From Mycobacteriales bacterium (GTDB taxonomy: Bacteria > Actinomycetota > Actinomycetes > Mycobacteriales > CADCTP01), in contig DASYKU010000124.1 of NCBI GenBank assembly GCA_035995165.1, positions 62,001 through 126,000 of the forward strand: a stretch of DNA of 64,000 nucleotides, read 5' to 3'. The translations under genes and the position numbers were made by a program. Under the pieces are notes generated by a model that was not told the origin of the DNA, made no database searches, and worked only from the letters and a program-made list of their open reading frames with translations. Of this stretch, positions 1 to 27,797 are shown piece by piece. Numbering within the stretch: the stretch's first letter is position 1; every line of letters starts with the position of its first letter.

Positions 1-1
1 G

Positions 2-64
2 TTCATCCTCGTCGACGAGGCGACCAACGCCACGGCCGGCGCGGGCACCATCCTCGAGGGCTGA
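2..64 (+). CDS. cysN: Sulfate adenylyltransferase subunit 1 (CysN), C-terminal end only
   Basis: Only the last 20 codons and the TGA stop are inside the window; the gene enters from the left edge. The tail contains FILVDEATNATAGAG, which matches the usual CysN ending (F-I/V-L-I/V-D-E-A-T-N-x-T-x-G-A-G). CysN is the GTPase subunit that, with CysD, makes adenosine 5'-phosphosulfate from sulfate and ATP. Its place beside four sulfotransferase domains and an APS kinase (26445-27797) suggests that this locus carries its own supply of activated sulfate. The fragment is too short to exclude a CysNC fusion with certainty, but the stop follows directly after the CysN motif, so no fused kinase is present. 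Confidence 0.8.
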   Translation, partial: FILVDEATNATAGAGTILEG

Positions 65-137: not shown

Positions 138-947
138 TCAGCGGTGCTCGGGGACCGGGAACGGCTCGGCGAGCGAGAGGTCGCGCATGCTGTAGCCGTA
201 GCGCCGGGCGCGTTCCTCGTAGGCGCGGACGAGCCGGTGGTAGCGCAGGAACGGCAGCGGGGCCCGGGACGAGGCCCACTGGCCCCATTGGGCCGCGTAC
301 GAGCTGCTGCGGTGGCCCTGCAGGGTCTCCGGCGGGATCGGGCCGTCCAGGCCCAGGAACCGGCCGATGCCGTCCAGGGTCCGCTCCGGCTGCCCGACCA
401 GGTCCTCGTACTTGACCACGTGCAGGCGCCGGATCGCCGGCGCGTCCGCGGCGAACAGGTCGTGGGCCCGGAACCAGTGCGCGGCCAGCCGCTTCATGGT
501 CATCTTGCGGGCCCACTTGCGGGTGGACAGCGTGACGATCACCGGGTGCCGGACGACCATGACGAAATAGGCGTCCGGAAACAGCTCCTGCAGGAACCGG
601 GTCATGATCAGGTTCGGCGGGCTCTTCTCCACCAGCACCGGCCGGCTCAGGTCCCAGTACGGCTTCCACTGCTCCAGCAGCGTCGCCGCCGACTCCTTGC
701 CGACGTACGGCGAGGTCTCGGTCAGGTGCGCCGCGGGGCTGAAGGCGAAGTGGCCGGCGCCGCCGTAGTCGCGGACCCGGGGGTAGACGGTCTGCAGGTG
801 CTGACCCTCGTCCTCCCGGGCGCCGGTCTCGACGAAGCCACTGACCTGGGGATGTGTCGCCAGGGTCCGCGCCAGCGGGGTCGTCCCGCTGCGGTGCAGC
901 CCGCCCACGAACACGAGGCGGTGATCGTCCACGCCCAGTTCCCCCAC
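138..947 (-). CDS. PAPS-dependent sulfotransferase
   Basis: A 269-residue cytosolic sulfotransferase. The 5'-phosphosulfate loop is near the N-terminus (about residues 16-27, GLHRSGTTPLARTL), and a 3'-phosphate-binding region around VVRHPVIVTLSTRKW follows near residue 130. The length is normal for the bacterial Sulfotransfer_3 type. It would move sulfate from PAPS to a hydroxyl or amine acceptor; given the neighbours (glycosyltransferases, flippase, ligase) a sugar is the likely acceptor, which is inference. It lacks the CGCG cysteine cluster found in the sulfotransferases at 3982-5442 and 7338-8288, so it belongs to another branch. It stands alone, transcribed towards the cysN end and away from the glycosidase gene at 1355. 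Confidence 0.85.
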   Translation of the reverse strand: MGELGVDDHRLVFVGGLHRSGTTPLARTLATHPQVSGFVETGAREDEGQHLQTVYPRVRDYGGAGHFAFSPAAHLTETSPYVGKESAATLLEQWKPYWDLSRPVLVEKSPPNLIMTRFLQELFPDAYFVMVVRHPVIVTLSTRKWARKMTMKRLAAHWFRAHDLFAADAPAIRRLHVVKYEDLVGQPERTLDGIGRFLGLDGPIPPETLQGHRSSSYAAQWGQWASSRAPLPFLRYHRLVRAYEERARRYGYSMRDLSLAEPFPVPEHR

Positions 948-1354: not shown

Positions 1355-2986
1355 ATGGGTCACGGCTCGCGCCACAGACGTTCCGACGCAGGTCGGAACA
1401 GGCACGAACGTCGGCCGGGTGGTCAGCAGGTCGCGCTGACCACCGGCCCCCAGCGCAGGAACGGCTCACGGGCCGCGAAGATCATCGGTTCGGGCGTGGC
1501 GGTGTCCCTTGCCGTCGGCGTCACCGCTGTGATGGCCGGGGCGGCGGACAAGACCGCGGCCCCGAGCTCGCTCACGGTGGCCGCGAACGCGGACACTTAC
1601 GTGTACCAGGAGTACCCGAACGAGAACCGGGGTTCGTCCCCGAAGCTCACCGCGAGTAACCAGAAGAACCTGCACACACGGACGTACTTCAAGTTCTCCG
1701 TACAGGGAGTGCCCGCTGGCCTGACCCCCAAGGCGCACCTGCTGCTCTCCTCGGATCGCAACCAGCCCGGGACGGTCGAGCTCCACTCGGTCGGCTCGAC
1801 GAGCTGGAACGCGATGACGATGACGATGCGCAACGCCCCCGCGGTCGGCGCCGTGGTCGCCACGGTCCAGCCCGCCGCCCGGCAGAAGTCGCTCGACTTC
1901 GACCTCTCCGGCGTCGTGACCAAGGACGGGACCTACTCCTTCGCCCTCGTCTCCCCGCTCGCCGAATCCGTCTCCGCGGTGTTCGCCAGCGAGCACGGGT
2001 CCGACGGCCCCCAGCTCTCCCTCACCTGGAACGGTGACGCGGGCGCCCCGGCTCCGGCGCCCCCCTCGGCCGGTCCGACCTCCCCGGGCGCGGGACTGCC
2101 CTCGCTGTCCCCGCTGCCGCCGGTCCCGGCCCCGAGCAAGCCGACCTCCTCGGCCAGCACGTCCTCCTCGGCCCCGGCCCCGCCGAGCAAGCCGATCGGC
2201 AGCACCCTGTTCGGCACCAGCCTCTGGACCGGGGACGGTTCCAACGCCTCCTCGGCCCTGGCCCGCGAGACGGCGGCCTTCGGCCGGCCCGACGTGGTCC
2301 GGACGTACTACACCGGCATGCCGGCGGCGTGGCCCGGCTCGGCCGGCGTCAGCGGCGGCCCGGTCGTGGTCTCGTTCAAGGCGGCACCGAAGGACGTCGC
2401 GGCCGGCCGGCTGGACAGCCAGTTCACGAACTGGTTCGCCACCGCGCCGAAGGACCGCCCGATCTTCTGGTCCTACTTCCACGAGCCCGAGAACGACGTG
2501 GAGGCCGGCTCGTTCACGACCGCCGACTACCGGGCGGCCTGGGCGCACCTCGCCGGGCTGGCCGACAAGGCGAACAACCCCCAGCTGCACTCGAACCTGA
2601 TCCTCATGTGCTGGACGCTCAACCCGGGTTCGCACCGCAACTGGAAGGACTACTTCGCCGGCGCCGGCGTCGTCGACACCATCGGGTGGGACTGCTACAA
2701 CAAGTCCTTCACCAAGGGTTCGTACGGTGACCCGGCCTCGATGCTCGGCACCGCCGTCGCCACCTCCAAGGCGGCCGGTGTGAACTGGGCCGTCGCCGAG
2801 CTCGGCAGCAAGATGGCCTCCGGCGACAGCGGCGCCGGCCGGGCCGCCTGGCTGACGAAGATCGGCAGCTATGCCCGGGCCAACGGGGCCGCCTACATCA
2901 CGTACTTCGACTCGACCGTCGGCGGCGACTTCCGTCTCCTCGACGCGGCGAGCAAGAACGCGTGGCGTCAGGTGATCGGCGGCTAG
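1355..2986 (+). CDS. Secreted DNRLRE-domain GH26-like glycoside hydrolase
   Basis: A 543-residue exported protein. An Arg-rich N-terminus is followed by a hydrophobic segment (about residues 45-65). Residues about 70-225 form a DNRLRE-type beta-sandwich (NADTYVYQEYPNENRGSSP opening). A Pro/Ser-rich linker spans about 228-285. The C-terminal half is a (beta/alpha)8 barrel of the GH26 type, with the likely acid/base Glu377 in HEPEN and nucleophile Glu482 in AVAELGSK. GH26 enzymes cut beta-mannans or related polymers; here it may trim or turn over the polysaccharide made by the neighbouring genes. The start is supported by GGGAGAGG upstream. The gene ends at a strong hairpin shared with the convergent glycosyltransferase operon. 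The substrate is not evident from the sequence. Confidence 0.82.
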   Translation: MGHGSRHRRSDAGRNRHERRPGGQQVALTTGPQRRNGSRAAKIIGSGVAVSLAVGVTAVMAGAADKTAAPSSLTVAANADTYVYQEYPNENRGSSPKLTASNQKNLHTRTYFKFSVQGVPAGLTPKAHLLLSSDRNQPGTVELHSVGSTSWNAMTMTMRNAPAVGAVVATVQPAARQKSLDFDLSGVVTKDGTYSFALVSPLAESVSAVFASEHGSDGPQLSLTWNGDAGAPAPAPPSAGPTSPGAGLPSLSPLPPVPAPSKPTSSASTSSSAPAPPSKPIGSTLFGTSLWTGDGSNASSALARETAAFGRPDVVRTYYTGMPAAWPGSAGVSGGPVVVSFKAAPKDVAAGRLDSQFTNWFATAPKDRPIFWSYFHEPENDVEAGSFTTADYRAAWAHLAGLADKANNPQLHSNLILMCWTLNPGSHRNWKDYFAGAGVVDTIGWDCYNKSFTKGSYGDPASMLGTAVATSKAAGVNWAVAELGSKMASGDSGAGRAAWLTKIGSYARANGAAYITYFDSTVGGDFRLLDAASKNAWRQVIGG

Positions 2987-3043: not shown

Positions 3044-3985
3044 CTAGATCCCGCGGCCGCGGGAGTTCAGCTCGCGGACCACCCGCTCGCCGGTGACCGC
3101 CTTGGACGCCACCGCCAGCGCCAGCACCGCCCGCGGCTCGGTCGGCTTGAGCCGGGCCGTCTTCGCCGCCCAGCGCAGCGCCTGCCGCCGGTTGCCCAGC
3201 GCGGCCTCCGCGAACGCGATCTGCCCGGTCAGCCGGGCCGCCCCGGCGCGCTCGCCGTAGAAGTCGGGGTACGTGACCAGCAGCCGCTGCAGCGCGGCCG
3301 AGACCGTCGCCCAGCGCCCGGTGAAGTACGACTTCTGGTGCCAGAGCACCTCGACGTGCACGCTTGGCAGCGACCGGATCGGCGCGACCCGGGCCGCCCG
3401 CAGCAGCAGCTCGTAGTCCTCGGCGTAGCTGCCCGGCAGCTCCTCGTCGACCAGCCCGATCTCGTCCAGCAGCGCGCGCCGGATCAGGAACGTGGACGGG
3501 TGCAGCTCGGTCAGCCGGTCCCGCAGCAGGTCGGTGAACGTGACCCGGTCCGCGGACAGGGTGCGCTCGACCAGCCGGTCGCCGTACCGGACCTGGATCC
3601 CGCAGCAGACGAACGACGCCTCCGGGTCGGACCGCAGCACCGCGACCTGTGCGGACAGCTTGTCCGGCAGCCAGCGGTCGTCGTCGTCGCAGAAGGCGAC
3701 CAGCTCGGTCTCGACCAGCGCGATGCCGGAGTTGCGGGCGCCGGCCAGGCCGGGGGAGCGGACGTTGCGGGTGACCGCGACCCGGTCCTCTTCCAGCTCG
3801 GTGTCCGGCTCGCTGCTGTCGTGCACGACGATGCAGCGGACCTCGCCCGGGTAGTCCTGGGCCAGCACCGCGGCCACGGCCTTGCGGACCAGCTGCGGCC
3901 GGTCCCGGGTCGGGATCACCACGGTCACCGCCGGGTACGTCCCGGCGCCGGTCGTGTCCTGCTCCGCGGCCGGCGAACCGGTCAC
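3044..3985 (-). CDS. Family 2 glycosyltransferase
   Basis: A 313-residue GT-A glycosyltransferase. The nucleotide-sugar fold opens with VTVVIPTRDRPQLV (about residues 20-33). AFCDDDDRW carries the metal-binding DXD motif near residue 100. An EDYELLLRAA segment further on gives the usual catalytic acid region. A helical C-terminal tail (about 240-313) is rich in Ala and Arg. It is the last gene of a three-gene operon, and its GTG start overlaps the stop of the gene upstream by GTGA, so translation is coupled. A longer open frame runs upstream through the previous gene but is only a GC-rich shadow. It probably adds one sugar to the repeat unit; donor and acceptor cannot be told. Confidence 0.88.
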   Translation of the reverse strand: MTGSPAAEQDTTGAGTYPAVTVVIPTRDRPQLVRKAVAAVLAQDYPGEVRCIVVHDSSEPDTELEEDRVAVTRNVRSPGLAGARNSGIALVETELVAFCDDDDRWLPDKLSAQVAVLRSDPEASFVCCGIQVRYGDRLVERTLSADRVTFTDLLRDRLTELHPSTFLIRRALLDEIGLVDEELPGSYAEDYELLLRAARVAPIRSLPSVHVEVLWHQKSYFTGRWATVSAALQRLLVTYPDFYGERAGAARLTGQIAFAEAALGNRRQALRWAAKTARLKPTEPRAVLALAVASKAVTGERVVRELNSRGRGI

Positions 3986-5442
3986 TTGTCCCCCCGCAGC
4001 TGGTAGCCGTAGCCGGTCATCGGCCACGCGGTCAGCGCCGACACGCCGAGCCGGGTCCGCGGCGGCATCTCCCGCCGCCAGGCGTCGTCGGCCCGCAGCG
4101 TCAGCCGGCCGGTGGAGAACCGCATCGGGTTGCCGCCGATCGTGTGGCTGCGGCCGAGCTCCGCGCTGTCGGAGTGCAGGAACCGCAGCGACTCCTCGTC
4201 GGCCGGCAGCCCCAGGTAGGCCAGCACCTCGCTGAGCACGCCCACCGGCTCGGCCACCAGGTCCTCGTACCGGATCCGGTGGACCGCGGTGCCGAGCCGG
4301 CCGAGCAGGTCGAACAGCGCGTTGTTGGCCGTCCAGAGCACGGCCGCGCGGGCCGGCGTGTAGGTCGGCATGTCCTCGGCGTCCCGCTCCGGCCGGCTCA
4401 CCCGCTTCGACCACGAGTACGCCACGCCGCGGCTGTCGCGGACCATGTGCAGCACCCGCAGGTCCAGGTCGGCGGCCCGGCGCAGCGCGAAGGCCAGCGA
4501 GGCGTGCTTGCTCGCGTCGACCAGCACCGCGTCGCCGGTGACCTCGGCGACGCCCCGGTAGAGCCGCCGGTAGAGGTCGCAGTATTCGTCGACCATGCGG
4601 GCCTGCTTGGCCGAGGCGGCCGGGGCGGCCAGCAGCGGCACGTACCGGGTCCGGTCGACCGCGGCCTTCAGGGCCAGCACCTGCTCGACGTCGAGCCGGT
4701 CCCAGCCGCCGAACGCGGCGGCGCCGACCGCCCGCCAGTGCGGACAGCGGGAGAACGGCTCGCCGCAGCCGCAACGCTCGTCGTCGCGCAGCGCCCGTTC
4801 CCACAGGTGCACGGACTCGCCGATCGCGGTCACCCCGGGCACCTCGGCCAGCATCCGCTCCAGCAGCGTCGACCCGGACCGGCCGAAGCCGCCGAGGAAC
4901 GCGATCCGAGGCCGGTCCACGGCCGCGGGCGGCGGCGTCTCGACCCGCAGCAGCCCGTCGACCAGCCGGCCCAGCCGCCGGGTGGTGCTCACGATCTCCT
5001 CCGGCGTCCCGACCGCGGCACCGCGGCCGGCGACGGCCGCCGCGTCCAGCGCGTCGCGCAACGCCGCCTCGTCCTCGGCCACCGTGACCAGGCCGCTGGA
5101 GCCGAGCCGGCGGGAGAACAACTGCTGGTGGTCGTCGACGTGCTCGTCGCGCGCCGGGTCGCGCGGCACCACGATCGGGCGGTGGCCGGCCTTGCGGGCC
5201 TCGGAGATCGTCGCCGGGCCGCCGTGGCTGACCACCACGTCGACGGCGGCGATCTCGGACTGCACCTTGGCCCAGTCCAGGTAAGGCTGGCCGGCCGCGA
5301 ACTCCGGCGGGCGGGAGGTGCCGTGCTGGACCAGCACGTCGGCGCCGCGGTCGGCGGCCCACCGGTCCACCCAGGCGACCAGCCGGTCGAAGCGGTGGTG
5401 ATCCGTCCCGACCAGCACCAGCACCCGCGGAGCCGCGCTCAC
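3982..5442 (-). CDS. Alg13/PssE-type glycosyltransferase fused to a sulfotransferase
   Basis: A 486-residue two-domain protein. Residues 1-160 resemble the C-terminal catalytic half of GT28 enzymes (Alg13, PssE, Cps14G), with VVSHGGPATISEARKAG near residues 70-86 and a DEHVDDHQ segment near 99-106 that normally binds UDP-sugar. A short linker (about 160-177) leads to a full PAPS sulfotransferase: 5'-PSB GGFGRSGSTLLERM at 184-197, CGCGEPFSRCPHW near 224-236, and 3'-PSB MVRDSRG at 333-339. The GTG start overlaps the stop of the Alg14/PssD-like gene upstream (GTGA), which should supply the membrane-anchoring half of the glycosyltransferase. The fusion suggests that sugar transfer and sulfation of the same glycan are coupled; that step is inference. 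Confidence 0.85.
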   Translation of the reverse strand: MSAAPRVLVLVGTDHHRFDRLVAWVDRWAADRGADVLVQHGTSRPPEFAAGQPYLDWAKVQSEIAAVDVVVSHGGPATISEARKAGHRPIVVPRDPARDEHVDDHQQLFSRRLGSSGLVTVAEDEAALRDALDAAAVAGRGAAVGTPEEIVSTTRRLGRLVDGLLRVETPPPAAVDRPRIAFLGGFGRSGSTLLERMLAEVPGVTAIGESVHLWERALRDDERCGCGEPFSRCPHWRAVGAAAFGGWDRLDVEQVLALKAAVDRTRYVPLLAAPAASAKQARMVDEYCDLYRRLYRGVAEVTGDAVLVDASKHASLAFALRRAADLDLRVLHMVRDSRGVAYSWSKRVSRPERDAEDMPTYTPARAAVLWTANNALFDLLGRLGTAVHRIRYEDLVAEPVGVLSEVLAYLGLPADEESLRFLHSDSAELGRSHTIGGNPMRFSTGRLTLRADDAWRREMPPRTRLGVSALTAWPMTGYGYQLRGDK

Positions 5443-5939
5443 AGCAGCGGCCCCACGACGACGGAGCCCGGGTAGAACCGGCGCTGCTCCTCCCACTGCA
5501 CCAGGAACAGTCGGGTGAACGGGCGGCACAGCCGGCCGGTGAGCGTGGGGGAGTCGATGCGGTCGTACACCTCGAGATAGACCGTGGGAATTCCGCGCAG
5601 CCAGCCGAGGACGAAGAAAGGAACCGCGACGCCGGCACCGGTGGACACGATCACGGCCGGTTTCACCTTACGCAAGAGCCTGAATGCGAGACCCATGTTG
5701 CGGAGGAGGTTCGGAATGTTACGGGTGGTGGGATAATGCGCCCAGGCGACCTTCTCGCCCGGCAGCTGCGATTTGGCGTCCGGGGTCGGAAAGGTGACCC
5801 AGGCCCGCGGCCGGTCCCCCCACCAGGACCGCAGCGCGAGCAGTTGGGCGAGGTGCCCGCCGCTGGAACCCACCAGCAGCACCGGTCCTTGTCCCCCGGG
5901 CATTCGCGACCTCTCCGCCGCCGCGAAGGCAGCCGTCAT
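5439..5939 (-). CDS. Alg14/PssD-like glycosyltransferase subunit
   Basis: A protein of about 166 residues of the Alg14/PssD/Cps14F family. The N-terminal glycine loop PVLLVGSSGGHLAQLLAL and the mid-protein VIVSTGAGVAVPFFVLG are the family hallmarks. Alg14-type proteins sit at the membrane and recruit the Alg13-type catalytic half; the next gene encodes that half, fused to a sulfotransferase, and starts inside this gene's stop codon. The ATG at 5939 is preferred because GGAG and a run of Gs lie just upstream; an in-frame GTG at 5948 is also possible. First gene of the operon 5939 to 3044. Confidence 0.82.
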   Translation of the reverse strand: MTAAFAAAERSRMPGGQGPVLLVGSSGGHLAQLLALRSWWGDRPRAWVTFPTPDAKSQLPGEKVAWAHYPTTRNIPNLLRNMGLAFRLLRKVKPAVIVSTGAGVAVPFFVLGWLRGIPTVYLEVYDRIDSPTLTGRLCRPFTRLFLVQWEEQRRFYPGSVVVGPLL

Positions 5940-6080
5940 CGTCTCCACCCCCAGCGCGGCGACCGGTCCGGCCCGCCGCGCAGTCGACCCGCCGAGAAAT
6001 GCGGCTCCGTATCGCGAATCTACCGGCGTCGGCGACCGGACGGGGCCGTACGGGCGAACGAATGGTGAACCGCACCCTAC

Positions 6081-7337: not shown

Positions 7338-8288
7338 ATGACTACGCCGGTGCCGGTCGCGTTCGTGGGGGGTCACGGGCGCAGCGGCAGCACACTGCTG
7401 TCGCGGGTGCTCGGCGCGGTGCCGGGGTTCGTCACTGTCGGTGAGCTCTGCTACCTCTGGGACCAGGGCGTCGTCATGGACCGGATGTGCGGCTGCGGGA
7501 AGTCGTTCTCCGAGTGCGAGTTCTGGACCGCGGTCGGCAAGGAGGCGTTCGGCGGCTGGGACCAGGTCGACGCCAAGCGGCTGCTGACCCTGCGCAAGGC
7601 GGTCGAGCGGGTCCGGTACACGCCGCTGCTGTCCGCGCCCGCGCTCGCCCCCGACTACAACCGCAAGCTGCACGAGTACGCGGCGGCCATGTCGAGTGTG
7701 TACGCGTCGGTCCGGACCGTCAGCGGGGCGGAGGTCGTCGTCGACACCTCGAAGTACCCGTCCTCGGCGTACCTGCTGCGGCACGTGCCGGACGTCGAGC
7801 TCAAGCTCGTGCACCTGATCCGCTCGGTCTACGGCGTCTGCTACTCCTGGTCGAAGACCGTCGCCCGGCCGGACCGGGACGGCAAGCCGATGCCGACGTA
7901 CCCGCCGGCCCGGACCGCGGCCGAGTGGGTGGCGTTCAATTTCCTGCTCGACGCGCTGCGGCTGCGGGGCGTGCCGGCCGAGCTGGTGCACTACGAGGAC
8001 TTCGTGGCCAAGCCGCGGGAGACGCTGGCCGGCATCGTCCGGTTCCTGCTCGGCCGGGACGCCTCCGAGGCCGACCTGGCGTTCGTGGGGGAGTCCAGCG
8101 TGGAGTTGCCGCGCGACCACAGCGTGGCCGGCAACCCGATGCGGTTCCGGTCCGGTCCCGAGCAGCTCACGCTCGACGAGGCCTGGCGGACGAAGCTGGA
8201 CCCGAAGGCCCGCCGGGTGATCAGCTTGGTCAGCGGGCCGGCCATCCTCCGCTACGGGTACGGCTCGGACCTGCGCAAGTCCGCCTGA
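7338..8288 (+). CDS. PAPS-dependent sulfotransferase with CGCG cysteine cluster
   Basis: A 316-residue sulfotransferase closely related to the C-terminal domain of the fusion protein at 3982-5442. It carries the 5'-PSB loop VGGHGRSGSTLLSRVLG (about residues 10-26), the cysteine cluster CGCGKSFSECEFW (about 51-63), VVVDTSKYPSSAYLL, and the 3'-PSB region HLIRSVYGVCYSWSK. The ATG has an excellent GAGGGGGAACGAGG site upstream. It is divergent from the membrane glycosidase gene, with a 189-nt shared promoter region. The two CGCG-type enzymes probably arose by duplication within this locus and may sulfate different positions of the same polymer (inference). Confidence 0.88.
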   Translation: MTTPVPVAFVGGHGRSGSTLLSRVLGAVPGFVTVGELCYLWDQGVVMDRMCGCGKSFSECEFWTAVGKEAFGGWDQVDAKRLLTLRKAVERVRYTPLLSAPALAPDYNRKLHEYAAAMSSVYASVRTVSGAEVVVDTSKYPSSAYLLRHVPDVELKLVHLIRSVYGVCYSWSKTVARPDRDGKPMPTYPPARTAAEWVAFNFLLDALRLRGVPAELVHYEDFVAKPRETLAGIVRFLLGRDASEADLAFVGESSVELPRDHSVAGNPMRFRSGPEQLTLDEAWRTKLDPKARRVISLVSGPAILRYGYGSDLRKSA

Positions 8289-8293
8289 CGCCG

Positions 8294-8362
8294 GGCCGCG
8301 CTCAGGCGCGGGGGCCGCGCGGGGCCGCGCTCAGGCGCAGGGCGCGCTCGGCGCTCAGGCGC
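8294..8362. repeat. Short direct repeats at the convergent 3' ends
   Basis: The 16-mer GGCCGCGCTCAGGCGC occurs at 8294-8309 and 8323-8338, and its last 12 bases occur again at 8351-8362, overlapping the stop codon of the flippase gene (8355). The repeats fill the 66 nt between the convergent sulfotransferase and flippase genes. They may form stems acting as a terminator or reflect slippage; no function is evident. Confidence 0.6.
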
Positions 8363-10292
8363 GGTGGCGGCCGCGGCCGGTCGGGGCCGGCTTGCGCGGG
8401 GTGGTCAGGCGGGGCGGCGCGGCGACCTTGGTCCCGTTCCTTCCTCCGTCGACCGCGGTCCCGTTCCGGGCCGGCGCGGCGCCGTTCGCGCCCGCACCGG
8501 CAGGGGCCGGGCCGACCGGAGCCGGACCCGGGCCCGGGCCGCCGGATCCCGGACCGCCGGGCCCGCCGGGACCGCCCCGGGGACCGCGCCGCCGGCCGCC
8601 GATGAACGCGTCGAGCACGAGGGCGCGGCGGAACTTCCACAGCGCCCCGGCCCACAGCAGCGCCGCCACCACCGAGGCCGCCAGCGCCGGCACCAGCCGG
8701 TCGCCGAAGGCCACCCGGGCGATCACCGCCGGCGGCAGCACCGTGGCCGTGCACAGCACGACCGCCGTGACGCTGGACCGGCCGACCGGGTGCAGCCCGG
8801 TCGCGACGAGCAGCTGCGCCAGCGGCACCAGGTTCGCGACCAGGATCGAGACGGCCCAGCCGATGGCCGCGCCGAGGATCCCGATCTGGGGGATGAGGAT
8901 CAGGTCGACGCCGACCTGGACGACCAGTGCCAGGACGGCCTTGGCCAGGTTCCAGGTGCTCTTGCCGGCCATCATCAGCACGGTGTCGACCTGGCCGCTG
9001 GCGGTGGCGACCAGCATCGCGCCGCAGAGCACGACCACGACGTCGGTGGCGCTGGCGTACCGGTGGCCGAAGATGCTGAGCAGGCCGGCCGGGAACGCGC
9101 CGACGAGCAGGTAGAGCGGCCAGGTGGTGAGCACCAGCCAGCTGGTCGTGGTGCGGTAGAGCATCCCGGCCTCGTCCAGGTCCTTGCGGGCCAGCGCGGC
9201 CGACAGCCGCGGCTGCAGCGCCACCGAGATGGCCTGGTTGCCCAGCTGCCCGACGACCAGGAACCGGGTCGCGGCCGAGTAGAGCGCGGCCGGCACCGGG
9301 CCCAGGATCGAGATGATCAGCAGCACGTCGGCCCGCTGCAGGCCGACCTGGGTCAGCGAGATCAGGGCCCGGGGACCGGTGAAGCGCCAGTACTCCCGGC
9401 GGTCGAAGCCGGACGGCGCCGCGTCGGAGCGGCGGGCCCGGTTCAGCGCCGCCATCCGCCGGGCCGGCAGCCAGGACAGCAGCGTCGCGGGCAGGTAGGG
9501 CACGGTCCAGGCCAGCACGAGCAGCAGCACGCTGTGCGTCGGCACGACCAGCACGACCAGCACGACCAGCACCAGCTGGGCCAGCGGCCGGGCGATCCGC
9601 TCGATCAGCACCGTGGTCCGCATCCGGCCGAAGCCGCGGGTGATCGACTGCAGCACGTCGCCCAGCGCGGCGAACGGCAGCGCCAGCCCGCACAGCCGCA
9701 GCACCAGCACCACGCCGCTGCTGGTGTTGCCGAGCACATGCTCGGCGATCTGCGGCGCGAGCAGCAGCATCCCCAGGCCCAGGACCGAGGAGACGGCCAG
9801 CGTCGAGCGCACCGAGAGCCGCAGGCACTCGGCGACCTCCTGCGGCGAGCCGAGCAGCCGCAGCCGGGGCAGGAAGTAGATCGCGCCGCCGCCGGTGCCG
9901 ACCCGGCCGATCGTGGACAGCAGCAGGATCAGCGAGGTGATGGAGAAGAAGATGCCGGCGTTGGCCTGGCTCATCGCCCGGGCCACCACGACCGACAGCA
10001 GCAGGTTCGCGACCGTCGTGATGCCGGCACCGAAGAGGTTCACGCCGCCGCCGCGGGCCACTGCCTCAACACTGCTACGCCGGTCGGCCCCGTCCGCGTC
10101 CGGGGCGGGGGCGACCTCGACCGCCCGTTCCTCCGCGAACTCGATCGCCGCCGGGGCCGTCGGCGGCAGCGCCAGCCGGACCGTCGCCTCGGGGTCCAGC
10201 TGCACGGTCGCCTCCGGATCGAAGGCGGGCGGCGGGCTGGTCACGCCCCAGCCTGTCACACGGCCCATGATTGCCGGGCCCGTTCGCCGCAT
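8355..10292 (-). CDS. Wzx-type polysaccharide flippase (MOP superfamily)
   Basis: A 645-residue integral membrane protein. An acidic cytosolic N-terminus (about 85 residues) precedes some 12-14 transmembrane helices between about residues 90 and 575, beginning with NLFGAGITTVANLLLSVVVA, which fits the oligosaccharide flippase/MurJ-like fold. The C-terminal about 70 residues are a Gly-Pro-rich, then basic tail that is not part of the fold. It would move the lipid-linked repeat unit across the membrane, so with the Wzy-like and Wzz-like genes (15639-19985) it indicates a Wzx/Wzy-dependent route. The start is uncertain: ATG at 10292 or 10268, or a GTG further in; none has a strong ribosome binding site. 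Confidence 0.85.
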   Translation of the reverse strand: MRRTGPAIMGRVTGWGVTSPPPAFDPEATVQLDPEATVRLALPPTAPAAIEFAEERAVEVAPAPDADGADRRSSVEAVARGGGVNLFGAGITTVANLLLSVVVARAMSQANAGIFFSITSLILLLSTIGRVGTGGGAIYFLPRLRLLGSPQEVAECLRLSVRSTLAVSSVLGLGMLLLAPQIAEHVLGNTSSGVVLVLRLCGLALPFAALGDVLQSITRGFGRMRTTVLIERIARPLAQLVLVVLVVLVVPTHSVLLLVLAWTVPYLPATLLSWLPARRMAALNRARRSDAAPSGFDRREYWRFTGPRALISLTQVGLQRADVLLIISILGPVPAALYSAATRFLVVGQLGNQAISVALQPRLSAALARKDLDEAGMLYRTTTSWLVLTTWPLYLLVGAFPAGLLSIFGHRYASATDVVVVLCGAMLVATASGQVDTVLMMAGKSTWNLAKAVLALVVQVGVDLILIPQIGILGAAIGWAVSILVANLVPLAQLLVATGLHPVGRSSVTAVVLCTATVLPPAVIARVAFGDRLVPALAASVVAALLWAGALWKFRRALVLDAFIGGRRRGPRGGPGGPGGPGSGGPGPGPAPVGPAPAGAGANGAAPARNGTAVDGGRNGTKVAAPPRLTTPRKPAPTGRGRHRA

Positions 10293-13504: not shown

Positions 13505-14392
13505 TCAGGCGCGCCAGCTGGGGGGCGCGCCGAGCCAGGACTCGAGCTCCGCGTCGGAGTCGGCGAGCCGGCCCTCCAGCGAGGTCCGCAGGGAGTCCGG
13601 CATCGGCGCGCGCGGCCGGGCGTTGTGCTTGTCGAACACGACGCCGCCGGCACGGCCGATGCCGAGGAAGTCGACGACCTCGTCGAAGACCGGCTCCGGG
13701 TCGGTGAAGAACCGCTGGCTGTCCACGACGTGCATCCGGTCCCGGCCGAACAGCCCCGCCAGCCGTGCCAGCTGCGCCGCGTACCGCCCGCGGGTCACGT
13801 ACGCGTGGTGCTGGTGCGAGTGGGACTGGTACGTCGGGTCGGCGATCAGCTTGGCCTCCTCGCCCGCCAGCCGGACCGGCTCCAGCTCCAGCGCCTTGGA
13901 GAACGGCTCGGTCTCGAAGCCCCGGGCCGTCTCGTGGGTGTGGGCCGAGTACGCCCGCTCGACCGGGTCGCGCAGCAGCACCAGCAGCTTCACGCCCGGC
14001 AGGTCGTTCTCGATCCGCTTCCCGGCCAGCGGGTGGAACAGGTAGTACGGGCTGGACTCGCCGGTGATCGGCAGCCGGTCCGGCGCCGGCGCGGCCCGGC
14101 GGGCGCTGGCCAGGAGCGGGAAGTGACCGCGGTACCAGGCGGGCCCGTGCCCGTAGCCGGTGTCGAAGTAGTGCGCGCCCTTGTGCAGCACGGCCGGCAG
14201 CACCATCGGGTGCTGGGACAGCGTCTTGTACATCGACGTCGTCCCGCAGCGCTGCGCCCCGACGATGAGGAACGACGGCGTCATCCGGGCCGAGGCGGTG
14301 AACCGCCCGGTCGTCCGCGCCGTCGCCCGGGCCAGCTCCTGCAGCCGCGGCTGCTCCTTGAGCGTGGACTTGAGCGTGCCTACCCCCACCAC
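13505..14392 (-). CDS. PAPS-dependent sulfotransferase (Sulfotransfer_1 type)
   Basis: A 295-residue sulfotransferase of the heparan N-deacetylase/N-sulfotransferase-like type. The 5'-PSB loop FLIVGAQRCGTTSMYKTL is at about residues 43-60, GESSPYYLFHP follows, and the 3'-PSB LLVLLRDPVERAYSAHTHE is near 140-160. This branch includes enzymes acting on polysaccharides, so it is a good candidate for sulfating the exported glycan. The GTG at 14392 is chosen because AGGGGAGGGG lies 8 nt upstream and the gene above ends at 14416; the longer frame overlaps that gene. It is the last gene of a minus-strand run from 19985. Confidence 0.87.
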   Translation of the reverse strand: MVGVGTLKSTLKEQPRLQELARATARTTGRFTASARMTPSFLIVGAQRCGTTSMYKTLSQHPMVLPAVLHKGAHYFDTGYGHGPAWYRGHFPLLASARRAAPAPDRLPITGESSPYYLFHPLAGKRIENDLPGVKLLVLLRDPVERAYSAHTHETARGFETEPFSKALELEPVRLAGEEAKLIADPTYQSHSHQHHAYVTRGRYAAQLARLAGLFGRDRMHVVDSQRFFTDPEPVFDEVVDFLGIGRAGGVVFDKHNARPRAPMPDSLRTSLEGRLADSDAELESWLGAPPSWRA

Positions 14393-14415
14393 GAACCGAA
14401 CCCCTCCCCTTGATC

Positions 14416-15642
14416 TCAGCGCGCGACGACCGGTGCGGCCGCCCGAGCGGCGGCCAGCACCCCCTCGGTCATGCTGCGCCAGCTCCCCCACCTTGTCTGA
14501 CCGTCGCCGACGTACCGGGTCAGGATCTCGACCAGGTAGAGCGCGGCGACGACCGCCGCGGACTCGGCCGGTACCCCCACCGGCGCGAGCAGCCCGGGCG
14601 CCCGCCGGACCGAGTCGGCCGCGGCCCGGCCGGCCTGCTCGACGTGCGCGAGCGCCCGCGGCTGCAGGTCGTAGTGCAGCGCGTCGAAGCCGACCGGCAC
14701 GCCGCCGCCGAACCGCTCCCAGTCCCAGGCCAGCACCGTGTCCGCGACGACCGCCGTGTTCCACGGGGTCCAGTCGCCGTGCCAGGAGCCGATCCGCAGG
14801 TCGGTGGTCGCGCCGGCGAGCGAGTCCAGGGCGGCGATGAGCCCGTCGCGGGCCTCGCCCGGCGGCAGGTCCGCGACCCGCTTGCGCAGCCCCCGCACGT
14901 ACGGGCCGTCGACCGGCTCGGTCGAGATGCCGCCCACGGCCGCGACCTCGGCGGTGGCGGCGGCGAGCCGCTCGTCGGAGGGGCGGCGGGGGCGGCGGAC
15001 CGGCAGCGGGGACTGGACCAGGATCTCCAGCCCGCGCCAGGACCCGCCGGACAGCGCCTTTGGCGGGGTCACCTGCCGCAACCCGGCCTTGGCCAGCATC
15101 CGCAGCGTCGCGGTCTCGGCCGCGACCAGCCGGCCGGTGAGCACGGTGGTGGCGACCTTCGCGTACCCGACCGTACGGCCGTCGCCGTCGAGCAGCTGCA
15201 GGACGGGCTTGCGGTTCGCCCGGGCCGGCCCGAGGTGCAGGCTCATCAGCACCGGCCGGCCGAGCTCGCGGGAGAGGTGGTCCTCGATCGTGTCGCCGGC
15301 CCCGATCTCCAGCCGGTCCGGGACCAGCCGGTCGCCGGCCCCGGTCCGCAGCGCGGCGGCGGCCAGCCGGACCGCGAGCCGGCGGGCGGTCGAGGACTGC
15401 TCGCCGTAGCCGCGGACCGCGCCGCCGGCGGCCCGCGTCGTCCGCCGCGGCACCAGCAGCCGCGGGTGGGCCAGGCTGGGCAGGATCAGGTACGAGCGCC
15501 GGGCGCCCGCGTGCCGGGCCCGGCCCAGCGTCGCGGTGGCCGGCGCCGGCCAGAGCAGCGGGACCAGCTCGCGCAGGTACGCGACCCGGTCGTCGATCCC
15601 CTCGGCCGCGCGGGCCGGCGTCCCCCCGTGGTCCCCGGTCAC
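14416..15642 (-). CDS. Putative phosphotransferase of the aminoglycoside-kinase fold
   Basis: A 408-residue protein of unknown substrate. The C-terminal half has the kinase-fold catalytic loop HGDWTPWN (H288-N295) and a WDWERF segment about 15 residues later matching the metal-binding aspartate of APH/choline-kinase-like enzymes. The N-terminal half (about 1-200) has no family that I recognise, though the AKVATT segment may hold the ATP-binding lysine. The GTG start overlaps the stop of the O-antigen-ligase-like gene (GTGA), so it is translated with it. It might phosphorylate a sugar or lipid precursor of the glycan; this rests on context alone. Confidence 0.65.
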   Translation of the reverse strand: MTGDHGGTPARAAEGIDDRVAYLRELVPLLWPAPATATLGRARHAGARRSYLILPSLAHPRLLVPRRTTRAAGGAVRGYGEQSSTARRLAVRLAAAALRTGAGDRLVPDRLEIGAGDTIEDHLSRELGRPVLMSLHLGPARANRKPVLQLLDGDGRTVGYAKVATTVLTGRLVAAETATLRMLAKAGLRQVTPPKALSGGSWRGLEILVQSPLPVRRPRRPSDERLAAATAEVAAVGGISTEPVDGPYVRGLRKRVADLPPGEARDGLIAALDSLAGATTDLRIGSWHGDWTPWNTAVVADTVLAWDWERFGGGVPVGFDALHYDLQPRALAHVEQAGRAAADSVRRAPGLLAPVGVPAESAAVVAALYLVEILTRYVGDGQTRWGSWRSMTEGVLAAARAAAPVVAR

Positions 15643-17054
15643 GCCGCCTCCGCCTCCTCGTCCTTCAGGCGCCAGAGGATTCCGACGGCGATCATCTGGA
15701 TGGCCAGCGGCCAGCCGACGGCGGAGTAGACGAACATGAACCACATCGACATCAGGATCGTCATCTGCGCCCCGATGCCGACGGCTGATCGCACTCCTCG
15801 GTAGTGCCAGAGGATCGCGAGGAAGAACGCCAGGTAGAGCCCCATCCCGACGAAGCCCTGGGCGAAGATCGTCAGCCAGAAGTGGCCGGTGCTGCCGATG
15901 TCGGCGTTGCCGCAGCGGGCACAGTTCGAGGACGTGCCGACCGCGATCGACTGGTAGCTGCCGCGGACCTCACGGGTCGTGCCCCAGCCGACGACCGGTG
16001 ACTCGACCGCGCCCTGGAACGCCGCGTGCGCCAGGTTGGACCGGATGTCGTTGCTGTGCCCGTGGTCGAGCCGTTCCTGGACGACCGTGGCCAGCGGCGA
16101 GGCGGCGAAGACCACCGCCAGCGTGCCGACCGCCGCGGCCAGCCCGATGACCGTGGCCAGCCGGCCGCTCATCACCATCCGGGCGGCGAGCAGCAGCACC
16201 CCGAGCCCGAGACCGATCCAGAGCCCGCGGTTGAGCGAGTTGACGATCGGGATGAGCGCGACCAGCAGCACGCCGACCGCGAACAGCCGGAGCCGGGCCC
16301 GGGCCATCAGGCCCCAGACGATGAACCAGACGACCAGCAGCCCGGTGACGTTGCCCCAGGTGTTGGTGTACTCGAACGGCGCCTTCGGCCGGGGCGCGGT
16401 GAAGCCCAGCACGTCCTGGTTCTGCGCGGCCGACGGGTGCACCAGCACCTTGACGTACCCGTTGGAGGTCAGCGCGTGCGGCAGCACGAGCTCCACCGGC
16501 GAGGAGAAGTTGAAGCCGGGCGCGGCCAGGCCGAGCAGGCCGCCGGCGATCGCGACCACGAACAGCGTGGCCAGACAGTTGAGGATCGTCCGGACGGTCA
16601 GCCCGCGGGTCCGCATGTTGCCGACGTAGAGCATGACGATCGCGGAGGCGACGTAGTTGAACAGCCGCAACGAGTACGCGATGAGCTGGCTCGGCGCCCC
16701 GTGCGGCAGCGTGTCCGGCGCGGTCTTGCCCAGCATCAGCACGCTGACCAGCACGGCCAGCAGGAAACAGAGCCAGAGCGCGAACCCGCGCGGCACCCGC
16801 AGCGGCTTGATCCGGCGCAGCTGCCGGGCCATCGGGATGCTGAAGATGATGATCGAGAAGCTGCCGAGGCCGAGCGCCCACCAGAGCGGGAAGAACCCGA
16901 CCAGCGCGACGAAGGGCCAGTACTGCGGCAGGCGCAGCCCGTGCGAGCGCAGCGCCCGGGTCAGCCACGGTCCGGTGCGGTGCGCGCTGTGCGCGGCGGT
17001 GTCGCCCGGGCCGCGGTCGCTGGGCCGGAACGGCCGGTCGACGGTGCTCGTCAC
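15639..17054 (-). CDS. O-antigen ligase/polymerase (Wzy/WaaL) family membrane protein
   Basis: A 471-residue polytopic membrane protein with about 11-12 helices. A large extracytoplasmic loop lies after the middle (around HGHSNDIRSNLAHAAF and VGWGTTREVRGSYQ), including NSLNRGLWIGLGLGVLLL, typical of Wzy_C/O-antigen ligase proteins. It would either polymerise flipped repeat units or attach the polymer to its anchor. The GTG start overlaps the stop of the DUF3048 gene by GTGA; the upstream part of the open frame is a shadow. Two cysteines (NCARCGN) sit in the large loop and could form a disulfide outside the cell. Ligase and polymerase cannot be separated by sequence alone. Confidence 0.85.
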   Translation of the reverse strand: MTSTVDRPFRPSDRGPGDTAAHSAHRTGPWLTRALRSHGLRLPQYWPFVALVGFFPLWWALGLGSFSIIIFSIPMARQLRRIKPLRVPRGFALWLCFLLAVLVSVLMLGKTAPDTLPHGAPSQLIAYSLRLFNYVASAIVMLYVGNMRTRGLTVRTILNCLATLFVVAIAGGLLGLAAPGFNFSSPVELVLPHALTSNGYVKVLVHPSAAQNQDVLGFTAPRPKAPFEYTNTWGNVTGLLVVWFIVWGLMARARLRLFAVGVLLVALIPIVNSLNRGLWIGLGLGVLLLAARMVMSGRLATVIGLAAAVGTLAVVFAASPLATVVQERLDHGHSNDIRSNLAHAAFQGAVESPVVGWGTTREVRGSYQSIAVGTSSNCARCGNADIGSTGHFWLTIFAQGFVGMGLYLAFFLAILWHYRGVRSAVGIGAQMTILMSMWFMFVYSAVGWPLAIQMIAVGILWRLKDEEAEAA

Positions 17055-18020: not shown

Positions 18021-19985
18021 TCAGTCCGCCGCCGGGCGGGTGATCCGCCGGGTCGGCTCGTCGATGGCCGCCTCGACCGCCGGGTCGTCCGCGCCGGCCG
18101 GCAGGTGGCCGTTGCCGGTCACGCTCCCGTTGGCCTTGCCGCCGGCCTTGGTGCCGTTGGTCTTCGCGGCGGTGCCGTTGGCGGGCGTATGCCCGTTGGT
18201 GGCGATCCCGTTGGTACGGGCGGTCCGGCCGTTCGTGGTCCCGTTGGCCCGGCTCTCCAGCTGCTGGGTCAGGTCGTCGGCGGCCGCGCCGTAGCGGTCC
18301 TCGGCGCCGTACCGGTCCTCGGCGCCGTACCGGTCCTCCGCGCCGTACCGGTCCTCCGCGCCGTACCGGTCCGAAGTGGACGGTGCGGGCGGGGTGAAGC
18401 GGTCGGGCGCGTAGCCCCGGTCGGCGGCCGCGGCCGGAGTGGCGGCGGCGGTGGCGGCGGGCTGGGCCCGCTTCTCCCGGCGCACCGGCACCCGCGGCAT
18501 CGCGACCATCCCGATCGAGCGGGTGCCGACCAGGTCGATCAGCCGGGCCGCACGCAGCACCTCGTCGTGCGTGGTGGCGCCGAGCTCGACCACCAGCACG
18601 GTCACGTGGGCGAGCCGGGCCAGCGTCTGGGCCTGCGAGCCCGAGGACATCGGCGGCGCGTCGATGACGACGAACCGGGCCGAGTGCCGGAACTGGCGGA
18701 TGGCCTGCTCGGTGAGGAAGACCTGGGTCGCCTCGCTGGTGAGCTCGGCCTCGGCGCCGGGCGGGATGACCCGCAGGCCGTGCGCGGTGGCCGGGCGCTG
18801 CTCCAGGTCGGAGACGCTGTAGCCGCCGTGCAGAAGCTCGGACAGGCCGGGCGCGGTCGGGTCGAGGTCGAGGATCTGCCGGCCGCTGGAGGAGGGGTCG
18901 GCGCAGACCAGCACGGTGTCCAGGTTCATCCGGGCCAGCGAGACGGCCAGGTTGGCGGCGACGATGCTGCCGGCCGGCCCGTCGGAGGCGCCGGCGACCA
19001 GGATGATCTGCTCCCGGTCGGACACCAGTGAGACCAGCACGTTCCGCAGCTCGCTGAACGCGTTGCCCTGCCGGCTGTGCGTGCTCTGCACCAGGCTGAA
19101 GTCGGTCCGGGTGCCGGAGGGCACCTCGACCAGCACCGGCACGTCGAACTGACGCTCCAGGTCGACCGAGCGGCGGACCCGTTTGTCGGCCCGCTCGATC
19201 GCGAACGCGAGCATCAGCCCGAACAGCAGCCCCAGCAGCAGGCCGCTGGCGATGGCGAGGATGCCGAGCGGACCGGAGGCCGTGCTCGGCAGCTGCGCGT
19301 CGGTGGTGATCAGCCCGGGATCGATCTGGGTGGTCTGCAGCGGGATCAGCCGGCCCTGCAGGATGTTCAGCTGGTCGGTGATGGTGTTGACCTGCGCCTG
19401 CGCGGCGGCGTGGTCGGCCGAGGTCGGCGACAGCGCCGCGAGCTGGCTCGAGTACTTCCTCAGCGCGACCCCGAGCGTGTTGACCTGGGTCTGCAGCGCC
19501 TTGATCTGAGCGCTGGTGCTGGCCTTGGCCGTGTCCCCGCGCACGGCGAGGTACGCCTCGGCGAACGCGTGCGCGCCCTGCTGGGCGGCCAGCGGGTTGT
19601 CGGTGGTGAAGGCGATGTTGAGGAACGAGGTGTTCGCCGGCACGGTGATCGAGACCGCCTTGCCGAGCTCCTCCGGCGTGACCGAGGTGCGCAGCAGGTC
19701 CCGGGCCTTGGTCTCCACCAGCGTCGACTTGACCAGCTGGGCCTCGGTGTCGAGGTTGACCTCGCCGGACGTGCGGCCGTTGGCCACCGCGCTGTCCGAC
19801 CCCGTCGCGTTGACCTGCACGCTGGCGGTCGAGGTGTACTGCTGGGTGCGGGTGGCCGTGAAGGCGTAACCGGCGCTGACGCCGACCAGCAGGCCCAGAG
19901 CGATGGCCCACCAGCGCCGCTTCGCGAGACGCAGGTAGTCGCCCAGCTGGAGCGTGCTCCCACCGGACGAGCGCATCTGGCTCAC
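18021..19985 (-). CDS. Wzz/BY-kinase-like chain-length regulator with degenerate Walker A
   Basis: A 654-residue protein. Wzz-type N-terminal part: helix 1 about 24-45, extracytoplasmic coil, helix 2 about 243-265. The cytoplasmic part (about 300-500) has the CpsD/CapB tyrosine-kinase fold, but the Walker A lysine is absent: the GxGKST site reads G336-P-A-G339-S-I. The first aspartate of Walker A' is Cys (VLVCADP), while Walker B FVVIDAPP is kept. Residues about 537-567 carry five copies of DRYGAE, giving five evenly spaced tyrosines, followed by a low-complexity tail rich in Asn-Gly. The GTG start has AAGGGGGT upstream. It likely still sets chain length, but ATP binding is doubtful. First gene of the operon leading to 13505. 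Confidence 0.87.
   Translation of the reverse strand: MSQMRSSGGSTLQLGDYLRLAKRRWWAIALGLLVGVSAGYAFTATRTQQYTSTASVQVNATGSDSAVANGRTSGEVNLDTEAQLVKSTLVETKARDLLRTSVTPEELGKAVSITVPANTSFLNIAFTTDNPLAAQQGAHAFAEAYLAVRGDTAKASTSAQIKALQTQVNTLGVALRKYSSQLAALSPTSADHAAAQAQVNTITDQLNILQGRLIPLQTTQIDPGLITTDAQLPSTASGPLGILAIASGLLLGLLFGLMLAFAIERADKRVRRSVDLERQFDVPVLVEVPSGTRTDFSLVQSTHSRQGNAFSELRNVLVSLVSDREQIILVAGASDGPAGSIVAANLAVSLARMNLDTVLVCADPSSSGRQILDLDPTAPGLSELLHGGYSVSDLEQRPATAHGLRVIPPGAEAELTSEATQVFLTEQAIRQFRHSARFVVIDAPPMSSGSQAQTLARLAHVTVLVVELGATTHDEVLRAARLIDLVGTRSIGMVAMPRVPVRREKRAQPAATAAATPAAAADRGYAPDRFTPPAPSTSDRYGAEDRYGAEDRYGAEDRYGAEDRYGAAADDLTQQLESRANGTTNGRTARTNGIATNGHTPANGTAAKTNGTKAGGKANGSVTGNGHLPAGADDPAVEAAIDEPTRRITRPAAD
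18286..18375 (-). repeat. Five tandem 18-bp repeats encoding DRYGAE
   Basis: Five head-to-tail 18-bp units (18286, 18304, 18322, 18340, 18358), nearly identical at DNA level (GCGCCGTACCGGTCCTCx on the plus strand). Each encodes one DRYGAE hexapeptide. The low divergence suggests recent expansion by slippage, so copy number may vary between strains. Confidence 0.95.
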
Positions 19986-26444: not shown

Positions 26445-27797
26445 CTAAGACGTGAGCCAGCCGCCGGTTCGCAGCGCGGTGAGGAGACGGGCGAGGGACG
26501 CGTCGAGCGGCTCGGTCGAGGTGTCGACGACGAACTCCGCATCGTCCGGCTCCTCGTACGGATCGCTGATCCCGGTGAACTGCGGGATCAGACCGGCCCG
26601 CGCCTTGGCGTACAGCCCCTTGCGGTCGCGCTGCTCGCAGACCTCCAGCGGCGTCGCGACGTGCACGAGGAAGAAGTCGCCGACCGCCTCGGTCTCGGCC
26701 CGGACCGCGGCCCGCGTCGCCGCGTACGGTGCGATCGGGGCGCAGACGGCGATCCCGCCGTGCCGGGCGACCTCGGCCGCGACCCAGCCGATCCGCCGTA
26801 CGTTCAGATCGCGGTCAGCCTGCGAGAAACCGAGCCCGCGTGACAGTTCTCGACGCACCACGTCGCCATCGAGGACGGTCAGACTGCGCCGGCCGTCTTC
26901 GAGCAGCGCGTCGATGAGCGCGCGGGCGACCGTCGACTTCCCCGAGCCGGACAGTCCGGTGAAGAACACCACCAGGCCCCGGCGGGACCGCGGCGCCCGC
27001 CAGCGGCGCAGCTCGGTCCGGACCTCGGCCGGGGCCAGGTCCTCGGGCAGGTCCTGCTCGGTGTCGAGCGCGGCCAGCGCCGCCGCCCAGGGCCCGCCGT
27101 CGAGCATGAGCACGTCGCTCGCCCCGTACGCCCGGGCGACGGCGACCGCTGCGGCCTCGTCGGCGGCCGGGTCGGCCAGCCGGCGCAGCGGCACGGTGAC
27201 CACCCTGGTGTCGCCGCCGAGCGCCCGGCCGGCCGCGAGCACGGACCGCACCAGCGCCTCCGGCGGGAGCCCTCCGGTCTGCCGGCCCGCGGTCCGGGCC
27301 AGCAGCAGCACCGACTTCTGGCCCGCGGCGGTGACCCGCTCCAGGTCGGTGGCCAGCGGCGGCCGGTCGCAGACGACCGCGAGCACCGGCCCGTCCTGCT
27401 CGGCCCGGACCTGCTCCGGCGGTCGCTGCAGCCCGCGGAACGGCCCGTAGGCCGGCGGCCGGAGCGCCTCCAGCACCCCGACCCAGCCCCCATCGCCGAT
27501 CCCGGTCACGGCGGCCCTGCCCCCGCCGGTCCCGGTCGTGCCGGTCCCGGTCGCGTCCACGACGAGGACGGCGAGCGGCGTGCCTTCCGGGTCGGCGAGC
27601 ACCAGCCGTCCGGTGCCGGCGACCTGCTCATCCACGTCCGGGACCCGGCGCAGCGCCACCCGGCCGTCGCCCAGCGGCCGCAACTCACCGCCGAGGTCCA
27701 CGTCCACGCCCGCGAGCAGCAGCTCCAGGTCGGCGAGCAGCTCAGGCCCGGCGGCGTGCACCGGCCACGAATCCAGTCCGGCCGGCAGCAGGTCCAT
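26445..27797 (-). CDS. cysC: APS kinase with degenerate ATP-sulfurylase-like N-terminus
   Basis: A 450-residue protein. The C-terminal part (about 275-450) is a complete APS kinase: P-loop GLSGSGKS at 281-288, LDGDVVRRELSRGLGFS, DRDLNVRRIGWVA, and GLYAKARAG. It makes PAPS from APS, the donor for the four sulfotransferase domains in this window. The N-terminal about 270 residues resemble ATP sulfurylase in outline (VLADPEGTPLAVLVV like the PUA-type domain; VVCDRPPLATDLE where QxRNPxHxxH is expected), but the catalytic QxRN and HxxH residues are missing, so the part should be inactive and perhaps regulatory. The ATG at 27797 has GAGGAGAGGG upstream. It is divergent from the TauE/SafE-type gene. 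Confidence 0.88.
   Translation of the reverse strand: MDLLPAGLDSWPVHAAGPELLADLELLLAGVDVDLGGELRPLGDGRVALRRVPDVDEQVAGTGRLVLADPEGTPLAVLVVDATGTGTTGTGGGRAAVTGIGDGGWVGVLEALRPPAYGPFRGLQRPPEQVRAEQDGPVLAVVCDRPPLATDLERVTAAGQKSVLLLARTAGRQTGGLPPEALVRSVLAAGRALGGDTRVVTVPLRRLADPAADEAAAVAVARAYGASDVLMLDGGPWAAALAALDTEQDLPEDLAPAEVRTELRRWRAPRSRRGLVVFFTGLSGSGKSTVARALIDALLEDGRRSLTVLDGDVVRRELSRGLGFSQADRDLNVRRIGWVAAEVARHGGIAVCAPIAPYAATRAAVRAETEAVGDFFLVHVATPLEVCEQRDRKGLYAKARAGLIPQFTGISDPYEEPDDAEFVVDTSTEPLDASLARLLTALRTGGWLTS

Follow-up and report, generated by a model that had tools for sequence, protein, structure and literature searches.

A recurrent fusion of an Alg13/PssE-type glycosyltransferase domain and a sulfotransferase in a probable sulfated-exopolysaccharide cluster of Actinomycetota

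Introduction

Sulfated polysaccharides are familiar from animals and algae; bacterial ones have been linked chiefly to cyanobacteria and certain marine species. WecG/TagA, Alg13/Alg14 and PssDE enzymes transfer a second sugar onto a lipid-linked first sugar. PssE/PssD (Cps14G/Cps14F) and Alg13/Alg14 are two-part GT-B enzymes with adjacent partner genes, while WelK, a beta-1,4-glucuronosyltransferase, is a single-chain PssD-PssE protein. Among described gene clusters, wps-1 of Actinoplanes missouriensis encodes a GT2 glycosyltransferase, WpsB, a GH26 protein, Wzx, WpsH, a kinase-like protein, Wzy and Wzz; every gene except wpsD is required for normal sporangia, and the product is predicted, not proven, to be a sulfated polysaccharide, as is the case in actinomycetes generally (PMC13390465). 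The xss cluster for synechan in Synechocystis combines a Wzx/Wzy pathway and two sulfotransferases with a sulfated polymer (PMC8205485). Finally, the sulfated capsule cluster of Vibrio sp. KMM 8419 contains cysNDC together with sulfotransferases, and the presence of PAPS genes and sulfotransferases in a polysaccharide cluster has been described as a hallmark of pathways for sulfated polysaccharides (PMC11641403).

Here, we describe a gene from a Mycobacteriales bacterium that resembles parts of these systems and differs from each of them. It lies in a 64,000-nucleotide stretch of contig DASYKU010000124.1, referred to as the window. As in PssE/PssD and Alg13/Alg14, the glycosyltransferase is in two parts with an adjacent partner gene, profile and fold matches agree, and the HGG and EHVDDHQ motifs are conserved; in contrast to them, a sulfotransferase is attached C-terminally to the Alg13/PssE half, and the NCBI equivalog cut-offs are not reached. 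The N-terminal half and the Alg14-like neighbor match the corresponding halves of WelK (about 62-64 bits), but whereas WelK joins its two glycosyltransferase halves, here they are apart and one of them is joined to a sulfotransferase. All of the wps-1 genes named above have counterparts in the window in corresponding order, a comparison made against the published gene list and not the A. missouriensis sequence itself. The fused sulfotransferase half takes the place of WpsB, which is unfused in wps-1, and Alg14 and Alg13 stand where wps-1 has WpsC (WecG/GT26). The xss cluster differs in being cyanobacterial, with separate genes, eight glycosyltransferases and no reported fusion, and the Vibrio cluster in its ABC-transporter export and separate enzymes. 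Both enzyme families are known and the kind of cluster has recently been described; of their fusion we found no published description in a search of open-licence papers, in keeping with the first-pass annotation of this DNA, which knew of no enzyme joining the two activities. A chitin synthase paper that we checked contains no sulfotransferase fusion.

Results

One continuous reading frame encodes an Alg13/PssE-type domain and a complete sulfotransferase, and the fusion is real. The gene was correctly placed in the first-pass annotation, which left unsaid that it lies on the minus strand, running from 5442 down to 3982 (Table 1). The Alg13/PssE domain (GT28 C-terminal) spans residues 1-165 of the protein and is followed by a linker (about 166-178) and the sulfotransferase (about 179-486). 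Both domain assignments made at first pass held up in profile searches: Pfam PF04101 (Glyco_tran_28_C) matches residues 7-119 with an E-value of 6.1e-12 (46.3 bits, cut-off 22), making the N-terminal half GT28-like, and PF13469 (Sulfotransfer_3) matches residues 182-416 with an E-value of 2e-15 (58.1 bits, cut-off 27) over positions 3-216 of the 216 in the model. The NCBIfam PssE model also matches the N-terminal half (2.2e-17) at 63.3 bits, below its equivalog cut-off of 120, and we therefore do not name this half a PssE orthologue. At both ends the gene overlaps its neighbors by a 4-nt GTGA, shared with the GT2 gene downstream and with the Alg14/PssD-like gene upstream, the partner already recognized at first pass. 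The G+C content by codon position at the junction (0.82/0.60/0.96) is similar to that of the whole fused gene (0.77/0.52/0.98), showing that the linker is coding in the fused frame. A sequence scan found no hydrophobic segment in the fused protein strong enough for a membrane helix.

Table 1 Features of the fused gene and of the surrounding cluster. Coordinates refer to the window unless a locus is named; in the Nocardiopsis row, the strand is that of the L093 example.
Feature	Position	Strand	Evidence or remark
Fused Alg13/PssE-sulfotransferase gene	3982..5442	-	486 aa, GTG start; Pfam/NCBIfam, alignment, AlphaFold, Foldseek
Alg13/PssE half	4948..5442	-	Family motifs VGTD (11-14), HGGPATI (73-79) and EHVDDHQ (100-106) kept
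Sulfotransferase half	3982..4917	-	GRSGSTLL (187-194), VRDSRGVAYSW, CGCG...C and GNPMRF kept
Alg14/PssD-like partner	5439..5948	-	169 aa; Pfam PF08660 Alg14 4.9e-10, NCBIfam PssD 7.4e-30
GT2 glycosyltransferase (WpsA-like)	3044..3985	-	Pfam; position corresponds to WpsA
GH26-like protein (WpsE-like), N-terminal hydrophobic segment	6081..7148	-	Weak Glyco_hydro_26, 19.8 bits against cut-off 20.2; cluster position
Stand-alone sulfotransferase paralogue	7338..8288	+	45% identity to fused sulfotransferase
Wzx-like flippase (WpsG-like)	8355..10292	-	MatE 8.3e-6; recurs in relatives
Second-type sulfotransferase (WpsH-like)	13505..14404	-	Sulfotransfer_1 4.1e-10; recurs in relatives
Kinase-like protein (WpsI-like)	14416..15642	-	Named by position; no Pfam match
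Polytopic Wzy-like protein (WpsJ-like)	15639..17054	-	Named by position; no Pfam match
Wzz chain-length protein (WpsK-like)	18021..19985	-	PF02706 7.5e-7
Third Sulfotransfer_3 protein	138..947	-	6.7e-28; adjoins end of CysN
cysN 3' end	1..64	+	cysQ-cysD-cysN just before the window, L150:17162-20000
APS kinase	26445..27797	-	Kinase is residues 273-425; about 270 N-terminal aa without Pfam match
Nocardiopsis Alg13-GT2 loci	L091, L093-L097, L100-L102, L109, L110; e.g. L093:10291-11802	-	

The GRSGSTLL and VRDSRGVAYSW motifs of the sulfotransferase half are conserved throughout the alignment. From knowledge of the family, we take them to contact PAPS as motifs of the 5'-phosphosulfate-loop type and the 3'-phosphate type, respectively. 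An AlphaFold model of the fused protein, computed from a 40-row alignment of the window and locus proteins, reached a mean pLDDT of 91.4 and a pTM of 0.71, with both domains mostly above 90 and the linker region at about 60-77. In this model, a helix (147-165) closes the Alg13 domain and a strand (179-184) opens the sulfotransferase, with the weak linker between them. In Foldseek, the sulfotransferase half matched PAP-bound sulfotransferases (E 1e-7), and the N-terminal half matched the UDP-sugar-binding domain of GT-B enzymes with a TM, on the target, of about 0.6. The PDB profile matches were MurG and yeast ALG13 for the N-terminal half, and polyketide-synthase and tyrosylprotein sulfotransferases for the C-terminal half. 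The protein is thus predicted to consist of a Rossmann-type UDP-sugar (GT-B) domain and a PAPS sulfotransferase fold connected by a flexible linker.

The Alg14/PssD-like protein contains a single, moderately hydrophobic stretch (97-117), as would be expected if it recruits the fusion to the membrane. A priming sugar transferase and CysQ, CysD and CysN are encoded directly ahead of the window, CysN ending at window base 64; the names CysQ and CysN are our presumption from a reading of the sequence plus an Inositol_P match. The APS kinase inside the cluster is the only one found in the genome. Since the genome has a single CysD-type gene besides a probable CysH, this CysD and the APS kinase may have a role in sulfate assimilation as well. 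A homologue of the APS kinase protein adjoins a GT2 gene in L162 (12031-13311). Most of the gene set recurs in fused, split and Actinoplanes-type loci, and by analogy we consider the cluster to be a probable wps-1-like sulfated-exopolysaccharide cluster with PAPS genes, its product being predicted. This widespread context was absent from the first-pass annotation.

Among about 990 sampled Actinomycetota genomes, the identical fused frame was present in 12 besides that of the window (G020, G423, G257, G240, G222, G271, G204, G300, G205, G785, G677 and G795), giving 13 genomes in nine families, most of the examples coming from fragmented assemblies; the frame of G020 was also met as JAVEDU010000110.1 (L033). 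A fusion peculiar to one genome was thereby rejected, as were separate genes in all relatives. The fused cases include four species of one genus. In a peptide-seeded scan of GTDB genomes, all of the 80 matches listed look actinobacterial. Taking every fused match as good was rejected as well: nine cases, including the window, are clean, and four are doubtful. L160 (G677) retains an ATGA at the domain boundary and could reflect a frameshift, L156 (G222) has a frameshift downstream of the boundary, and the gene of L163 (G271) runs off the contig end. In the fourth, L161 (G795), the sulfotransferase half of the fused gene (8025-9425, plus strand) is degenerate; it has lost conserved motifs, GNPMR among them, and is possibly a dead or non-catalytic domain.

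The split version, which Micromonospora carries, was found in 15 relative loci, and in 15/15 the Alg13 stop and the sulfotransferase start overlap by 4 nt. The corresponding NTGA signature marks all of these pairs and, among the fused genes, the boundary in 1/13, and there is none at the domain boundary of the window's gene. The gene does have a GTGA at codon 151, preceded by a Shine-Dalgarno-like GGAGGAG, which lies inside the last conserved Alg13 helix and not at a gene boundary, and which would at most provide an internal start.

In a tree of the sulfotransferase domain, about seven changes are required to account for the fused rows, with a minimum of four forced by starred branches, and a single fused clade was rejected (p-AU 7e-6). 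The Alg13 tree is weaker, with starred branches forcing only one change and many long branches meeting. A single ancient fusion was rejected on the sulfotransferase tree, and the rejection of one fused clade indicates that fusion, fission or both happened repeatedly. In Nocardiopsis, the Alg13/PssE domain is joined to the GT2 enzyme and not to the sulfotransferase (11/11 loci seen). As Alg13 joins either a sulfotransferase or a GT2 enzyme, operon partners fuse in more than one combination, which is expected of proteins that work together. In addition, a 1008-aa open frame in L166 (729-3752, plus strand) covers a sulfotransferase and a GT2 enzyme, and could represent a further, third type of fusion.

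We then compared the second-sugar transferases across 79 loci (L034-L112). WecG/TagA was present in 56 loci and Alg13 with Alg14 in 17, while none had both (Fisher p about 1e-12, a value inflated by shared ancestry). In the 56 loci with WecG and without Alg13/Alg14, a WpsB-type sulfotransferase still lies beside the GT2 gene, so that WecG/TagA and Alg13/Alg14 apparently replace one another near this pair. In the window region, Alg14 and Alg13 stand beside the sulfotransferase, and a WecG gene is present at a distance of about 16 kb, in a different gene group. Given this mutual exclusion and the known role of WecG/TagA, Alg13/Alg14 and PssDE, the Alg13/Alg14 pair most likely performs the second-sugar step on undecaprenyl diphosphate here, by analogy. 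Because the sulfotransferase and GT2 enzyme persist when WecG is swapped in, sulfate may be accepted by a sugar that the two kinds of cluster share, whether the primer sugar, the one added by GT2 or a second sugar that is similar in both.

Discussion

The continuous frame, the predicted folds with intact motifs, the Alg14/PssD gene upstream, the operon order shared with many relatives, the PAPS genes at the cluster (CysQ/D/N adjoining, the sole APS kinase within) and the recurrence of the fusion suggest that the protein is a cytoplasmic enzyme with two heads, acting in a Wzx/Wzy-type pathway for sulfated exopolysaccharide, a model that we consider rather probable as a whole. The Alg13/PssE half would bind the sugar nucleotide and dock on membrane-associated Alg14/PssD, as in Alg13/Alg14 and PssE/PssD, and the pair would extend the first sugar on undecaprenyl diphosphate by a second one, as WecG/TagA probably does in sister clusters. 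The tethered sulfotransferase would transfer sulfate from PAPS to the nascent repeat unit, still linked to lipid, ahead of its flipping by Wzx. A covalent tether, in place of translational coupling of two adjacent genes, would fix the stoichiometry and put sulfation at the membrane site of synthesis. The first-pass suggestion of one complex that both adds and sulfates a sugar is likely to hold for the lipid-linked unit as such, and may or may not hold for the individual residue. A more specific form of the model, in which this repeatedly arisen enzyme of Actinomycetota hands its own sugar-extended, undecaprenyl-linked unit to the tethered sulfotransferase, sulfation preceding flipping and not decorating an already completed polymer, is tentative, and we would give it somewhat less than an even chance.

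The shared chain could instead serve stoichiometry or location only, with the sulfotransferase acting on the primer or GT2 sugar and no direct hand-over, a possibility that we take seriously without holding it to be probable. What is common to the 56 loci where sulfotransferase and GT2 stay together with WecG in place of Alg13/Alg14 would be the primer or the GT2 sugar; however, the residues added by WecG and Alg13/Alg14 could be similar, it is with Alg13 that the sulfotransferase repeatedly fuses, and in clusters with two sulfotransferases (L165, L166 and L138) one copy directly follows Alg13.

It is unlikely that a free sulfotransferase is also made by internal initiation. Of two in-frame candidates, the GTG at 4992-4990 (V151) has the GGAGGAG ahead of it, but its helix is conserved and EE codons alone yield that sequence; the GTG at 4920-4918 (V175) lies just ahead of the sulfotransferase fold, yet nothing Shine-Dalgarno-like precedes it. 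In the fused gene of L155, none of the 45 codons preceding the sulfotransferase motif is a start codon. A protein or small molecule as the target, in place of a glycan, appears quite improbable: TPST and olefin-synthase sulfotransferases are the best structural matches, but identity to those folds is only about 17-23%, and the gene sits in a polysaccharide cluster that also encodes Wzx, Wzy, Wzz and glycosyltransferases. An assembly or sequencing error is largely refuted and has hardly any probability left, for although a one-base indel would suffice to join genes that overlap as in the split relatives, and the doubtful L160 retains its boundary ATGA, the signature is missing from the window's boundary and from all but one fused gene, and the frame is fused in twelve other assemblies, four of them from species of one genus.

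As twelve further genomes of actinobacteria carry this join, the fusion is real and probably useful to its hosts. Its recurrence in separate lineages constitutes natural evidence for coupling of sugar transfer to sulfation at the lipid-linked stage, and this coupling becomes directly testable with one protein and its Alg14 partner. The fusion could also serve as a compact tool to make defined sulfated glycans.

Several further genes of the region were noted. A plus-strand gene at window 1496-2986 encodes a CBM96 carbohydrate-binding module with a GH26-like remainder, and in L153, L155 and L156 its relatives are neighbors of the fused genes. Two large proteins (10464-13391 and 21319-24717, both plus strand) recur in the sulfated-exopolysaccharide clusters of relatives, the former with a PKD domain and propeller-like repeats. 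Finally, HAD phosphatase, SIS-like, GHMP kinase and WecG genes at L150:7875-10892 (minus strand) resemble a set for nucleotide-heptose synthesis and belong to a second group of polysaccharide genes, which encodes a Wzy_C protein of its own.
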